Shown here piece by piece: positions 1,814 to 11,148 of a stretch of DNA of 11,148 bases (its first letter is position 1; every line of letters begins with the position of its first letter). Under the pieces are notes generated by a model that was not told where the DNA came from, searched no databases, and saw nothing but the letters and a program-made list of their open reading frames with translations. The stretch is from Gryganskiella cystojenkinii. Taxonomy: Eukaryota > Mortierellomycota > Mortierellomycetes > Mortierellales > Mortierellaceae. A program made the translations under genes and the position numbers. Location: assembly GCA_015852425.1 (NCBI GenBank), contig JAAAIG010001066.1:1-11148 (forward strand). Reading direction: 5' to 3'.

Positions 1814-4150
1814 ATGGCCACCTTTCACGCACTTTCACCACCTTTGGGCTCCCAGCAGTCTCGTCAAGCTCCTGACCTCTTCTCCATCGAGCTCGAACTC
1901 CTTTTACCGGAAGACCATTTCTTACCGGCGCAGAATATAGTTGCACAAGTTTGGACCAACATCCTTCACCGATTGAACCCAGATGGTCCCGAAACTTGGG
2001 CAGAGGTCCCCATGAAGCTCTCGCATGTCACTTCTATCGCAGAGTCGTCTCTCGGTGGCGGCTCGAACGAGCATACTAAAAACAAACGACGGAGTGTCGC
2101 CGTCTTTGCAACAAGACTTCAACCCACAGGTCGAGGCGATTTCGGCTTAACAGCCCGGTGGAAAGCCCACAAGGATATGACGGAATGGCAATGGGCTCCA
2201 ACAGCCATTACCGATACTCTGCAGGAACAACAAGAACAGAGCGGTGGAACCACGTTAATTGCTACTACCACCAAGGACGGGGAACCAATCAAGAACAGGG
2301 ACGTTAGTATTACCATTCGAGTTCCGCGGTCCATATCTGGTACTAGCTCGTGGTCCATGGGTCCACAATCGATCCTGGTTTATGGTCAACATGGCCCTCG
2401 TTTGGATGGTTTACTCGCCACCGCGGCCTCGTCTTCCTCAAATTCTCCCTCGATCATTGCAGCTGCCACCACCACAGCCTCTGCGATGGCCATGATTGGT
2501 GGACCAGGTCTCTACCTCGGCAATCACGCGGCTGCGACACGCGCCCGAATTTCTGGGTATGAAGCCGTTCTCTCGTTGGTTGGTGATCTATTAGATTTTG
2601 ATGAGGGTATTCCAGAGAGCGACAAAGACATCAACAAGAACGCATGGCTGGAACAGGCCAAGGCTAAGGAATTGGCGCAGACCCCACCAAAAAAATTCTC
2701 GGCCCTCTCTCGATCCTCGTCCCTGTCCTTCTCGAATGGGCCTGAAGAAGGTGGTGTTTCCCCCTTGGACATGAATGGGTCGACAGGTCTGCGTGACGGC
2801 CTGATGAAGAAGCGCTCCTCCGTCTCAGATTTCATGTCTCGGTATGAACCTGGATTGACGACCGGCCAAGAGGAGGAAGAATTCCTGGCTGGTGTCGTGA
2901 CCGAACCGGAAGAGGGACCGAGACTGACAAGAAAGACCTCCGTGACAAATATGATGGTCCCACTCCCCGTCTCTTCTTCTCCTCCCGTTTCCGGTTCCTC
3001 AAGAAGGCTGAGTCGGTCTTCTTACTCGGGCTCATTCACGTCCATCGCCGAGTTGGAGGCTTCAGATAGAACTACCACAGCCGCTACTCCTTCCAAAGTC
3101 GACAAGAAAATATCAACCAGCGCAGGTTTAAAAGAGACTGATACGGGTACCAAGGCAGAGGCTGCTATTGGGAACGGGAACGGGAACGGGAACGGAACCA
3201 CATTAGCTCAGTCTTCCAACGGATCAACGCCAACCGCTCAGGGCAAGAAAGGCTCGAACGCCTCACTCACAACCACTGATGCGGCGGCCGTTCTTCCACC
3301 TGCGCCGACAACTGCGACAGCCGCGCCGCCTTTGTCCAAGAAAGAGAAAGCAAAGGCGGCTTTAAGCGCCACAGCTGCTTCATCTTCATCCGCTTCTCTG
3401 CCACCCGTCTCTGGTAAGGTGTCTCCATCTTCAACAGGCTCGGGAAGAACGAATGTGGCCCTGTCCTCACCGACAATTGCTTCTCTTGGTATTGGCGCAG
3501 CCTTCCCGACTTTGGAGAACAAAACTCTCTCGAATCAATCATCTGTTGAAAACAAAGCAGTAAGCATCGGAGACACGGAGAAAACCAAGGAGAGCAAGGC
3601 ACCAGCACCAATTATCAGCACCGTATCCTCCAATAACGCCGAAACCTCGCCACCACCGTCCAGTGCCAAGGTCATGTCAACGCTGACTTCGTCATTTTCT
3701 TCTTCGGCCATGATCGCCTCCCTCTCTGCCGAGCTTTCATCCTCCTCAGCTCCTCCATCTTCCTCGTCCTCGACCACATCGACTGAGCCAATCAAGGAGT
3801 CACGCCCCTTCAGTCACAAGGTAATTTCGCTCCCACCGGGGTCGCATAACAGAATCTCGGACGCGAACCTGAAGGAAGCCGTAACGTTCTTGTTGGATGA
3901 GGTCGCTCAAGGAAAGAAAGTCCTAGTCCATTGCCGAGATGGTCACGGTCGCAGCGGCAGTGTCGCGATTGCCTACCTGGTCGCACGCGAGCAGATCCAA
4001 CAAAATAAGGAGCTGAGAGAAAAGAAAAAAACGGTCATGCGCACGCCTTCAGAGTCGTATCAAGCCGCGTTGAACGAGATTTGGAAGTGGAAATGTGATG
4101 TCTATCCTCACAAGGGTCTGCGCCAGAGCTTGGAGAGGATCGAATGGTAG
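1814..4150 (+). CDS. Dual-specificity phosphatase-like protein with long disordered insertion
   Basis: 778 residues in one exon. The start chosen is the first in-frame ATG, with a purine at -3 and G at +4. Residues 1-190 look folded (AQNIVAQVWTNILHRL near 45, GDFGLTARWKAHKDMTEWQW near 125) and may be a beta-sandwich. After a Ser/Ala/Thr-rich linker comes GGPGLYLGNHAAATRARI (229-246) and VLSLV (252-256), matching the beginning of a DSP catalytic domain. Residues about 266-668 are low-complexity (Ser, Thr, Ala, Pro, Gly/Asn repeats). The fold then resumes at KVISLPPGSHNRISDANL (669-686) and the signature HCRDGHGRS (706-714), a complete C-x5-R P-loop with nucleophile Cys707 and Arg713. The usual general-acid Asp is not at its expected place. 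It probably dephosphorylates phosphoprotein, or possibly phosphoglucan if the N-terminal domain binds carbohydrate; substrate unknown. Many RxxS sites in the insert suggest phospho-regulation. Confidence 0.85.
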   Translation: MATFHALSPPLGSQQSRQAPDLFSIELELLLPEDHFLPAQNIVAQVWTNILHRLNPDGPETWAEVPMKLSHVTSIAESSLGGGSNEHTKNKRRSVAVFATRLQPTGRGDFGLTARWKAHKDMTEWQWAPTAITDTLQEQQEQSGGTTLIATTTKDGEPIKNRDVSITIRVPRSISGTSSWSMGPQSILVYGQHGPRLDGLLATAASSSSNSPSIIAAATTTASAMAMIGGPGLYLGNHAAATRARISGYEAVLSLVGDLLDFDEGIPESDKDINKNAWLEQAKAKELAQTPPKKFSALSRSSSLSFSNGPEEGGVSPLDMNGSTGLRDGLMKKRSSVSDFMSRYEPGLTTGQEEEEFLAGVVTEPEEGPRLTRKTSVTNMMVPLPVSSSPPVSGSSRRLSRSSYSGSFTSIAELEASDRTTTAATPSKVDKKISTSAGLKETDTGTKAEAAIGNGNGNGNGTTLAQSSNGSTPTAQGKKGSNASLTTTDAAAVLPPAPTTATAAPPLSKKEKAKAALSATAASSSSASLPPVSGKVSPSSTGSGRTNVALSSPTIASLGIGAAFPTLENKTLSNQSSVENKAVSIGDTEKTKESKAPAPIISTVSSNNAETSPPPSSAKVMSTLTSSFSSSAMIASLSAELSSSSAPPSSSSSTTSTEPIKESRPFSHKVISLPPGSHNRISDANLKEAVTFLLDEVAQGKKVLVHCRDGHGRSGSVAIAYLVAREQIQQNKELREKKKTVMRTPSESYQAALNEIWKWKCDVYPHKGLRQSLERIEW
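3170..3193 (+). repeat. (GGGAAC)4 coding hexanucleotide repeat
   Basis: Four perfect GGGAAC units inside the phosphatase gene encode alternating Gly-Asn in the disordered insertion, around residues 453-460. Such repeats usually vary in copy number without shifting the frame. Confidence 0.9.
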
Positions 4151-6431: not shown

Positions 6432-8106
6432 CTATGCTTGCTCCGCTCTTTTGCTGCCTTTCCAAAACACAGTCTCGTTATGCAAACGTTCTACCATCCT
6501 CGTCGATGCACTCAACAACGGGTTCAACGGTTGAAGACCTGGCTCACCCATCAGCGAGAGACCTGCGAGGCCCATATAAGAGTGCATTACATCTATCGTA
6601 AACGAATACATCAGGTTTTAGAACGAAGCCAGCAATTGACAATCATCCCAGGATGATAAGAACACGAGACAAAAAGAATCATGAAGCTATTTCTCTTTTC
6701 CTTACCTGGGAACATATCAGGCCATTTTCCAAACCCTCCTAGACCTGGATGTTGTGTCTCCATAAGGTATCCTCGGTTGTACTCAAAATTGACAAGATCA
6801 TAGCTCCCCAGGATAGCAAGAGCACCTCCGACCCAGAAGGAATAACAGGTATCGGTTGGTTTGTTGGTCCTGCCCTGGAACCCAGTCGTTTGTCTTTGAA
6901 TGCACCATTTCCTTGTCCCTTCTTTGTCCACATATCCAGATCGAGCAAGTTGTTCCTCCAGGGACAACTCTTGAATCTCATTCTTACGCTCTCGTGCCGC
7001 ATACTCGGCCGCAATCAACTTTTGGTCCTTGATAGCATCGCCGCCAAGCAATCCTAACGTAGCTATCGCACAATAGGTCGTGCCTCCATGTGCCTCCTGT
7101 CTCGGGCTCTGTGAGAATCCATGTTCGTACGTGTTGCAGTCTCGAATGAACTTCAGGGCTCTTTCTTGATCGAACCCAGACCAGTCGTTCAAAAGATAGG
7201 ACAGAGCGGCTGCACTGTAGACAAAGCGAAGGTCAGACTGTTGATCGGTTACGCAGGGGATAAAACATCCATCCTCTCCCTGAAGTCTCCTCAAGGATCG
7301 CAGGATAGGCTCTTTGGCCACTCTGGAAAGGTCATCTCCCAAAAGTACTAGGGTCATCAGGGCTGTGTAGGTCATCGTGACATGGGCTGTGTCGTGCACA
7401 GTTGATCGTTCATCACATTCACAACCTCTGTTCGTCCTCATCTCGTTCGACTTTTGAAACGCCAGTCCAGAGAAGGGTCCACCTCCAAAACCGTAAAGAG
7501 CCTCGTTCTTGAGGTCTACAACGAGGAGTAAACTAAGTTAGTGCCATCGATAACGATATTTCAAATCTTGGATAACCATGAGTCTCTCCTTGATACCTAC
7601 CTCCAGTATCCTCGTCAGAAGGTACCCTTTGCTGGGAGTAGACCCATTCGATCCATGCTTTCCGGTCTGCTTCAGAGACCGTCTCCTCCAACACTCCAAG
7701 AAGCTCCAGTCCGCTGAGCGCAAACATGCCGAGCATCATTCTATATTCAAGACAGGTGGACACGACACAACGACAGACTCTTGGTGAGTACTTTCACGCG
7801 TTTGCGTGCCAAGTTGGCCGAGAACATCAATTTCCAAACACAGCCGCCAAAAATACGTCTGTTTGCATGGCTTCGTCTCTTTTCCACAGAAGGGCATGTC
7901 AAGCAGAGTAATTCCACAGTTTTTTTTTACCGGTGGGTGTCCATGGACGTATACGGTTGTGGCATCATCTGAAGTGTGCGTTTGAAGTACTGAATGTGCT
8001 TTTCTCGAGAAAATCTTTTAAGCTCGGCAGCGGCGGCAGACTCTGCAGTCGCAGCCTCCGGAGAAGTGTTTCCTTGTACCGAGGGAGGATCCTGGGTATT
8101 CAGCAT
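6432..8106 (-). CDS. CDC43: Geranylgeranyltransferase type I beta subunit
   Basis: 428 residues from four exons: 8106-7931, 7740-7601, 7515-6706, 6592-6432 (introns 190, 85 and 113 nt; phases agree). With the shared alpha subunit it transfers geranylgeranyl to the Cys of CaaX proteins ending in Leu, such as Rho-type GTPases, in the cytosol. Matches to the PGGT1B/Cdc43 family: HIQYFKRTLQMMPQPYTSMD near the N-terminus, MFALSGLELLG, YGFGGGPFSG, HVTMTYTALMTLVLLGDDLS, RFVYSAAALSYLLNDWSG, HGGTTYCAIATLGLLGG, GFQGRTNKPTDTCYSFWVGG, GGFGKWPD and HSYMGLAGLSLMGEP. Expected zinc ligands are Asp327, Cys329 and His379; the C-to-H spacing of 50 equals that in the mammalian enzyme. An extra loop of about 25 residues (rich in Glu/Lys/Arg, before RKWCIQRQ) is absent from human. 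It sits head to tail with the Abraxas-like gene, 230 bp upstream of it. Symbol given as the yeast orthologue name. Confidence 0.95.
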
Positions 8107-8434
8107 GGTACTTTAAGTGTTGAGGGTGGTTTGAGAAATGTTTGCAAGAGTGTGTGGAAAGAGAATGGACCAGCGCGAGAAGAAATGGAGAAAGGTCCGC
8201 ATGAATCGCACGTGACCATCACGTATTTGGGGACTCGTATTTGTTCTCCACATATTTACACGTATTTTCTAGGCACTTCAGAGCTTGGGTGTCTAACTAA
8301 CCGCCGTCTCTCTTTCACGCTTGCTCTAGGTGGTCAATTCATTTCTTTAATTTACTAATACTAGTTTTCATAAACGTTCCGTCCAATATCCAGTCGCATA
8401 CCGCACAACTTGAAGTCAATCATGAAAGTGACAT
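8107..8434. other. Intergenic region upstream of the GGTase-I beta gene
   Basis: 328 bp between the start of the GGTase-I beta gene and the stop of the repeat-peptide gene, both on the minus strand. It should hold the promoter of the former and the 3' UTR of the latter. No conserved coding sequence is seen in any frame. An AATTAAAGAA-like stretch on the minus strand near 8344-8355 could serve as a weak polyadenylation signal for the peptide gene. Confidence 0.5.
8209..8214. promoter_or_regulatory. CACGTG E-box in the GGTase-I beta promoter
   Basis: A perfect CACGTG palindrome about 103 bp upstream of the GGTase-I beta ATG; it is the core site of bHLH factors of the Cbf1/Pho4/SREBP type. A hexamer this short occurs by chance, so position is the only support. 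Confidence 0.3.
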
Positions 8435-8689
8435 TTAGGTACGAGAAGGCGACAGTCCGGCAGTTCCAGCCTTGCTTTGTGAGAGCTGGAGAATCTCAGC
8501 CTCGCTCTCAGAATCGTAGCGGCGAGTCCGAGAAGGAGACAGTCCGGCAGTTCCAACTTTGCTTTGTGAGAGCTGGAGAATCTCAGCCTCGCCCTCTGAA
8601 TCGTAGCGACGAGTGCGAGAAGGAGAGAGTCTGTTGGTTTCAAACCTTCCAGGAGAAGGTGTCACAATACCATGGGCTTCGGCATCACT
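8435..8689 (-). repeat. Tandem repeat of about 87 bp coding for peptide units 2-4
   Basis: On the minus strand the units are 8689-8606 (84 bp), 8605-8519 (87 bp) and 8518-8435 (81 bp plus stop). The last two differ at only a few positions, indicating a recent duplication. The first keeps only the ends (start Ser-Asp, end LSPSRT-RR). The multiple-of-three length keeps all frames open, which explains the spurious open frames on both strands here. Confidence 0.85.
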
Positions 8690-8881
8690 GCGACGAGTGC
8701 GAGAGGGAGACAAACCACTGGTTCTAAAATTTCCGTGAGGATTTTCTTGACTCAAAGCCACCGCAGACAGCAAGGGGGCCGCTTCGGTGTTGGGAACCGT
8801 AAGACAGACCGTAAAGACCAGTGCGCCCAACAGCATCAGACAGACTCGCTTGACGGAGCAGGACTTGGGGGAGGAAACCAT
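8435..8881 (-). CDS. Secreted tandem-repeat peptide precursor with R-T-R-R processing sites
   Basis: 148 residues in one exon, ATG with A at -3; I do not recognise the family. Residues 1-34 look like a classical signal peptide: basic start, hydrophobic core VCLMLLGALVFTVCLTV (13-29), likely cleavage after Ala34 in NTEA-APLL. The rest is polar, cysteine-free and divided by dibasic sites at residues 63-64, 91-92 and 120-121, each in the context SPSRTRR, which fits Kex2 and also the stricter furin pattern R-x-R-R. The released peptides would be residues 35-62, 65-90, 93-119 and 122-148 (28, 26, 27 and 27 long), all ending in LSPSRT; the last ends there because of the stop codon. Units 3 and 4 are nearly identical (YDSE(G/S)EAEILQLSQSK), while 1 and 2 have diverged. 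This is the layout of Kex2-processed repeat proteins and alpha-factor-like or RiPP precursors, but no modifying enzyme is nearby. The function is unknown; a repetitive structural wall or effector protein is the alternative. Confidence 0.72.
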   Translation of the reverse strand: MVSSPKSCSVKRVCLMLLGALVFTVCLTVPNTEAAPLLSAVALSQENPHGNFRTSGLSPSRTRRSDAEAHGIVTPSPGRFETNRLSPSRTRRYDSEGEAEILQLSQSKVGTAGLSPSRTRRYDSESEAEILQLSQSKAGTAGLSPSRT

Positions 8882-9044: not shown

Positions 9045-9051
9045 TTTTATA
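9045..9051 (-). promoter_or_regulatory. TATAAAA box candidate for the repeat-peptide gene
   Basis: TATAAAA on the minus strand, 164 nt upstream of the peptide-precursor ATG (8881). The distance allows a normal fungal start site 30-100 nt downstream of it. It is the clearest core-promoter motif in the spacer. Confidence 0.45.
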
Positions 9052-10339: not shown

Positions 10340-11148
10340 ATGGCCGCCCAGTATGATCTCACCTCAAAGATGATCCCCTTCCTGGATCTTCACCTTGTCT
10401 TCCCTTTGCTCGAGTTTTTGGAAATTAACGAGGTACTGCTTCAAGCTCACAACCCAGGGACTTTAGACAGACAGCTGGTCCAATCCTCGCTGTCCCCGAG
10501 TTCTTGGTCGCTGATCCATGCGCTGTCGTCATCATTCGTAGCTGAAATGCAACCACGTCATTAACATAGTTACTTTTTTCGCCACCAAAAAACCACAATT
10601 AGCTCTTCTACACCCCTAACACTTTGTTGGAGGCCCGTTATGAGCTTTCCTTGAAGACCAACATGATCGACTTTATCGACAAGCTCAACGGCGAGTTGAA
10701 GGAGGCTGGCGTCACCCCTGCTGGTGAGTTGTCGCTGTCGTTGTCGATGCTGGAATCAACAGACATGGAAGACTCTTGTGAAAGGATTCCTTTCAAAAAT
10801 TGACGTTATATTTTCTACTTGTTTTGTAGCCATCGAGTTGGTCAAGAAGCGCGAGGATATTCTGGAGCAGTTGCAGAACTCCCAGGCCGAGGCTCAAAAG
10901 GTCATGGATGTGATCGAGAACCCCGATGTCATCGCTGCTCTTCGTCAGGACAAGCTCCAAAACTTGCAGTTCTTGAAGGACAACTACGGCGTATGTGATC
11001 ATTTCCCAAAGTTGTGCTATCCCTAGCATTATGCTGACATTTTGAGGCTCGGGAAAGTTTGAAACCCTGGAGATGCGACAGTTTTCCTAATGCACCTTTA
11101 CATTCATTCGTTCTTGTAGATGACCCCCGAGATGATCCAGACTCTTTA
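10340..11148 (+). CDS. INT6: Translation initiation factor eIF3 subunit E (INT6), 3' end outside the window
   Basis: PCI-domain subunit of eIF3, which recruits the 40S ribosome to mRNA in the cytoplasm. Exons: 10340-10432, 10603-10723, 10830-10990, 11120-11148 (continues); introns 170, 106 and 129 nt with GTACTG, GTGAGT and GTATGT donors; phases agree. The protein opens MAAQYDLTSKMIPFLDLHLV then FPLLEFLEINE, matching the family N-terminus, and continues LFYTPNTLLEARYELSLKTN and MIDFIDKL. Exon 3 carries VKKREDILEQLQ and the helical region ending KDNYG, and exon 4 starts MTPEMIQTL. For intron 1, the acceptor AATTAG at 10602 was preferred over TTGGAG at 10632 because the extra ten residues fit the YNEK(D/E)LL region of homologues. 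The ATG has A at -3. The PCI domain itself lies beyond the window. Confidence 0.95.

Follow-up and report, generated by a model that had tools for sequence, protein, structure and literature searches.

The locus and its neighbouring genes

The window, by which the whole analysed stretch of 11,148 nucleotides is meant, holds on the minus strand at positions 8435–8881 a single open frame that runs uninterrupted from ATG to TAA over 148 codons. The encoded protein, hereafter the precursor, consists of an N-terminal predicted signal peptide followed by four units that are separated by Arg-Arg pairs. The predicted signal peptide (residues 1–34 or 1–35; 8777–8881, minus strand) begins with 12 residues containing K, K and R, continues with the hydrophobic run VCLMLLGALVFTVCLTV and ends in PNTEAA, where signal peptidase is predicted by eye to cut after NTEA or NTEAA. 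The hydropathy peak spans residues 13–31, with a mean Kyte–Doolittle value of 2.13 over 19 residues, and no second membrane segment was found by hydropathy, since no 19-residue window starting past residue 40 exceeds 0.16. The only KR of the precursor, at residues 11–12, lies inside this N-terminal region.

Unit 1 (PLLSAVALSQENPHGNFRTSGLSPSRT; residues 36–62; 8696–8776, minus strand) is 27 residues long, or 28 if A35 is its start, and is followed by the first predicted Kex2 site (residues 63–64; 8690–8695, minus strand). Unit 2 (SDAEAHGIVTPSPGRFETNRLSPSRT; residues 65–90; 8612–8689, minus strand) has 26 residues and precedes the second predicted site (residues 91–92; 8606–8611, minus strand), and unit 3 (YDSEGEAEILQLSQSKVGTAGLSPSRT; residues 93–119; 8525–8605, minus strand) has 27 residues and precedes the third (residues 120–121; 8519–8524, minus strand). 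Unit 4 (YDSESEAEILQLSQSKAGTAGLSPSRT; residues 122–148; 8438–8518, minus strand), again of 27 residues, is followed at once by TAA. Each of the three Arg-Arg pairs stands within an RTRR sequence. All four units end in LSPSRT, so that the stop codon of unit 4 occupies the place of a fourth Arg-Arg, and units 2, 3 and 4 start with SD, YD and YD, respectively. The original prediction, made from the letters of the DNA, had described four short units separated by R-T-R-R, a mature part free of cysteine and a Tyr residue directly after the cut in units 3 and 4; the frame bears out this description in each respect, with three RTRR sites, no Cys in any of the four units and Tyr where it was placed.

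The sequence TATAAA at 9046–9051 on the minus strand, 170 bases upstream of the ATG, is a candidate TATA box by its match to the consensus only. A C-terminal extension through an intron was considered and rejected: the GT in CGTACC before the TAA is a weak donor, the nearest AG would give an intron of 34 bases and later AGs would give longer ones, and the stop keeps register with the repeat units; this judgement was made by eye. Pfam gave no match for the precursor at E values up to 1, and Rfam gave nothing at gathering scores. Nothing came from a promoter scan that uses a prokaryote model, which is not applicable to fungi.

Directly downstream of the precursor gene and on the same strand lies a geranylgeranyltransferase type I beta gene (6611–8106, minus strand), of which the exon at 6611–7441 was matched and the start near 8106 was placed by eye. 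A protein of 778 residues is encoded on the plus strand at 1814–4150; it carries a dual-specificity phosphatase domain (PF00782) at its C-terminus and, by eye, a long Ser-rich middle of low complexity. At 10340–11148, also on the plus strand, is the start of the gene for eIF3 subunit e (PF09440), which is divergent from the precursor gene.

Coding evidence and searches for relatives

A tandem DNA repeat of 87 bases, present in 2.2 copies at 8442–8631, begins within the coding part for the fourth unit and takes in the greater part of units 3 and 4 together with the last part of unit 2. Tandem DNA repeats of period 87 appear in all six reading frames, and hence the repetition proves nothing about which frame is coding. 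The LSPSRT block occurs four times; among these copies, five of its six codons vary and none of the five changes the residue, whereas in the other five frames the variable codons that change a residue number 4 of 4, 4 of 4, 4 of 5, 1 of 4 and 4 of 4. The minimum of seven changes that the block requires are all silent (P about 0.0006, with 6.2 silent sites of 18). Seven codons distinguish unit 3 from unit 4, five silently and two by replacement, although this excess is not decisive alone because in plus frame 1 three of the differences are silent and two are replacements. The choice among synonymous codons is similar to that in two neighbouring genes, which served as the training set, and 22 of 5000 random recodings score as high. 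Total codon likelihood is slightly higher in plus frame 1 than in the precursor frame (0.157 versus 0.134 bits per codon), and plus frame 1 holds four stops. A 101-residue open reading frame on the opposite strand (8422–8727, plus strand) overlaps the precursor and repeats with the same period; this frame, plus frame 2, scores −0.036 and is one of those in which every variable codon of the LSPSRT block (4 of 4) changes the residue. The silent changes, the codon preference and the stop in register together indicate that the minus-strand frame at 8435–8881 looks protein-coding.

The likeness among the units is uneven. Identity extends over 25 of 27 positions between units 3 and 4, which are the sole pair of close copies. 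Each of the other five pairs shows 9 matches over 26–27 positions when LSPSRT is included, a level reached by a fraction of 0 to 0.00018 of 50,000 shuffles. With LSPSRT excluded, the same pairs show 3 matches over 20–21 positions, which is no better than shuffles (p 0.13–0.21); D at position 2 and E at position 4 are common to units 2, 3 and 4. Since LSPSRT is identical in all four units while the rest is at the shuffle level, the constant part of the product would be the C-terminal end before the cut.

Searches for relatives of the precursor returned none. A first search of 5.8 billion proteins yielded 7341 candidates, among which only the precursor itself was found, and a second, with a lengthened query and E values up to 10, found none among the 7992 candidates sharing most words. 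The second search admits longer relatives, and the precursor, being too short to be a candidate there, provides no positive control for it. Both searches reach predicted proteins that share five-residue words, so that a short, fast-changing gene could be missed. Among the best 120 of 262 matches in the same database, the exon of the neighbouring geranylgeranyltransferase gene has 31 relatives at 58–86% identity, the next standing at 48%; 26 of these 31 bear the names of Mortierella and allied genera, and the relative from Entomortierella chlamydospora is lower, at 51%. These genera belong to the Mortierellomycota, and the relatives of the neighbouring gene place the genome among Mortierella-type fungi. 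The homologues in related species that the original prediction had made a condition of its reading did not appear in these word-based searches of 5.8 billion proteins, despite the 31 found for the neighbouring gene. Scans of viral and prokaryote contigs, which are not fungal, gave 12 and 152 pattern matches, respectively, none of which was confirmed.

The source assembly (35.0 Mb, 1050 contigs) was searched for paralogues. The whole-genome search returned only the copy in the window and one weak match (E value 0.14, 27% identity, two internal stops), and none of the frames listed at the latter holds LSPSRT. A codon pattern for SPSRTRR, with Ser as TCN only, has six matches in the genome, three of them in the precursor gene; the reversed control pattern has four, and therefore the three matches elsewhere are at chance level. 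Among the frames of at least 40 residues listed at these three, there is no repeat of the precursor's kind. Either the precursor gene belongs to a narrow lineage, or it is too short and variable for gene callers and for the word search.

That the searches found no homologue, and that a 101-residue frame overlaps on the other strand, would agree with a frame that is open by chance because it lies over a tandem DNA repeat, or with a decayed gene. Such an origin is very unlikely, because the variation of the LSPSRT block is silent only in the precursor frame, because so few random recodings reach its synonymous codon preference, and because a hydrophobic start and a stop in register enclose the repeats.

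Candidate processing enzymes and comparison with Kex2-processed repeat proteins

The genome encodes enzymes that could process the precursor. Contig C808 carries a Kex2 gene, whose catalytic exon is closer to yeast kexin (1OT5, 6.6e-68) than to furin (7.2e-55). A P domain is present, and by eye the frame containing its last part has a later hydrophobic stretch. Serine carboxypeptidases give ten matches on six contigs, the strongest on C233. Comparison with solved structures covered one exon each from C662, C190, C552 and C259, leaving out C233 and C849. The best solved match of the C662 exon is Kex1 (1AC5, 1.3e-34), those of C190 and C552 are nearest to carboxypeptidase Y, and that of C259 is a near tie between carboxypeptidase Y (2.3e-12) and Kex1 (3.5e-12). 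Judged from the N-terminal half of the protein, the predicted C662 enzyme is Kex1-like; no membrane anchor was found for it. A gene of the DPPIV type lies on C364, with further DPPIV matches on C122, both being assignments to the family and not to Ste13. Since the searches for the P domain, carboxypeptidases and DPPIV all gave genes, the search method works in this genome for conserved families.

The precursor is probably a secreted protein that is cut by Kex2 into four linear peptides with a common C-terminus, that is, a Kex2-processed repeat protein (KEP). The 148-residue protein would enter the secretory pathway through its hydrophobic N-terminus, Kex2 would cut after the Arg-Arg pairs, and a Kex1-type carboxypeptidase would trim the two arginines, releasing four linear peptides of 26–28 residues that all end in LSPSRT. 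Removal of Arg-Arg by a Kex1-type enzyme would leave the three inner units with the very end that the gene encodes for the fourth, and the stop in register is what cutting by Kex2 and trimming by Kex1 predict. The RTRR sites, this stop and the presence of Kex2 and Kex1-like genes make a secreted multi-peptide precursor, as originally proposed, the best reading and likely the right one. The precursor gives exact peptide sequences and masses to seek, and the internal prediction that all four peptides end in LSPSRT after Kex1 trimming can be checked by mass spectrometry. The calculated monoisotopic masses of the trimmed, unmodified peptides are 2835.463 or 2906.500 for unit 1, depending on its start, 2781.379 for unit 2, 2822.393 for unit 3 and 2824.373 for unit 4; two arginines left on units 1–3 would add 312.2.

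An unlikely alternative is that the secreted protein stays whole in the cell wall or on the hyphal surface, with structural repeats and uncut Arg-Arg pairs. The recurrence of LSPSRT while the remainder of the unit drifts could reflect a binding or glycosylation motif in such a protein. However, all three dibasic sites keep exact register with the repeat units and the final copy breaks off where an Arg-Arg pair would follow, which would be needless if the pairs were uncut, and Kex2 is encoded in the genome.

KEPs were named in 2019 by Le Marquer et al. (PMC6339444) and surveyed again in 2020 by Umemura (PMC7329392). The criteria of the 2019 survey, as outlined there, were emulated in part and without the original pipeline (PMC6339444). 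For the signal peptide, which the survey calls with SignalP, hydropathy gives the peak of 2.13 over residues 13–31. Where at least four fragments are required after cutting at KR or RR, the precursor gives four past the N-terminal region, and hydropathy indicates no further membrane segment. Where at least three fragments must match one motif, three do so by an in-house FIMO-like score that takes unit 2 as the motif and assumes general background frequencies of the residues (p = 4.3e-6 for unit 1 and 6.4e-6 for units 3 and 4). Repeats must make up at least 15% of the protein, and here they make up 70% (4 × 26 of 148 residues). The 2020 survey asks for three or more tandem repeats, each of 8 residues or longer, with a position score above 0.6 (PMC7329392), and the precursor could fail these criteria because close copying (25 of 27) is confined to units 3 and 4. 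For the same reason, its repeats are weak when judged by what is usual among KEPs.

In common with KEPs as described in the two surveys (PMC6339444, PMC7329392), the precursor has a hydrophobic N-terminus, compact repeats and a dibasic site between units. Unlike them, it has four units with only two near copies, its constant part is confined to the last six residues before the cut, and no homologue was found. In the 2020 survey, 38 of 39 Mucoromycota strains had KEPs, 357 in all, and of the 7878 KEPs in total 2560 lacked homologues (PMC7329392), so that finding an orphan among the KEPs of this phylum is not surprising. Mucoromycota KEPs are also said to show larger-sized peptides (PMC6339444). 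The original prediction had called the precursor unrecognised; this holds for the sequence, which had no match in the searches made, but not for the layout, which belongs to the known KEP class (PMC7329392, PMC6339444). The layout is that of KEPs, and it is the sequence itself that is new. As a kind of system, the precursor is ordinary for fungi. No KEP study of Mortierella appeared among the papers listed by the literature searches, and the supplementary tables of the two surveys may include Mortierella KEPs.

Linear KEP peptides of Coprinopsis and other mushrooms are reported from culture supernatants and tissues (Vogt et al. 2022, PMC9769878). As in these mushrooms, the precursor appears to be secreted and has Arg-Arg between its units, and linear peptides produced by Kex2 and Kex1 are predicted (PMC9769878). 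In contrast to them, the precursor comes from another phylum and is known from its gene alone, whereas mushroom peptides have been detected; some of the mushroom peptides carry Ste13 dipeptides, and the units of the precursor do not (PMC9769878). KEP peptides are still present in Coprinopsis kex knockouts (PMC9769878), so that other enzymes may contribute to the processing. According to the same study, knockouts of six KEPs have no apparent phenotype, which led the authors to propose that the peptides act in the biotic environment (PMC9769878). KEPs of early-diverging fungi are discussed as possible signals in the 2019 survey, whose authors state that their role "will have to be determined" (PMC6339444). 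By analogy with the suggestion of Vogt et al. (PMC9769878), the most likely role, though held with rather low confidence, would be that of unmodified secreted peptides acting on other organisms or on neighbouring hyphae, with LSPSRT being recognised and the variable N-terminal part being tuned or free.

Pheromone and RiPP readings

The original prediction had compared the layout with pheromone precursors, Kex2-processed repeat precursors and precursors of the ustiloxin type; the second comparison stands, and the other two are weakened by the lack of XA or XP starts and of a YxIx core, respectively. If the precursor were an alpha-type pheromone precursor, its processing would be that of a KEP, with which this reading overlaps, and the four peptides would bind the receptor of a mating partner. 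Ascomycete alpha-factor precursors likewise have repeats for Kex2 cutting behind a signal peptide, which in the precursor is predicted, and their last copy also ends at the stop. Their peptides are shorter than the units of the precursor. Unlike alpha-factor precursors, the precursor has no XA or XP dipeptide of the Ste13 type at the start of any of the three units that Kex2 would release; unit 1, which would be released by signal peptidase, is the only one that could begin with AP. Moreover, a search of the genome gave no match to the STE2 receptor, and no control genome matched either. Farnesylated a-type pheromones carry a C-terminal CaaX, which is absent from the precursor, as it ends in SRT. 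STE3-type receptors of Dikarya bind farnesylated peptides, and this too argues against a pheromone, despite the same general layout and a sub-threshold STE3-like match in the genome. Trisporoids, named in the original prediction as the mating signal, agree with the literature, in which trisporic acid is the assumed signal of Mortierella (PMC3834313). A pheromone precursor therefore appears improbable.

There is a slender chance that the precursor encodes a peptide hormone or pheromone of Mortierella-type fungi, with four peptides whose single invariant C-terminus, LSPSRT, would bind a receptor of the fungus itself. If true, this would be the first peptide signal for mating or growth in a lineage assumed to rely on trisporoids.

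Least probable of all is a precursor of the ustiloxin type, from which Tyr-containing peptides would be cyclised: Tyr directly follows the cut in units 3 and 4, but only these two of the four units contain Tyr (in YDSE), the YxIx core defined in the 2020 survey is absent, and the units are 26–28 residues long against a typical 13, 14 and 8 (PMC7329392). The precursor resembles those of ustiloxin and phomopsin in having repeats with Kex2 sites, some of them containing Tyr, and differs from them also in that UstYa (DUF3328) had no match anywhere in the 35 Mb assembly, of which the window is part, in a search in which no control genome matched either.

The STE3-like match lies on another contig of the same genome (G000:C938:13660-14055, L022) and reaches about 17.5–17.6 bits against the pheromone A receptor family, for which the Pfam cut-off is 29.2. 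It does not tie the precursor, which is best read as a KEP, to mating. For Rhizophagus, an STE3 orthologue has been reported together with the statement that no peptide pheromone gene was found (PMC3834313). The C938 frame has several hydrophobic stretches by eye and is possibly a divergent fungal gene of the pheromone-receptor-like kind.
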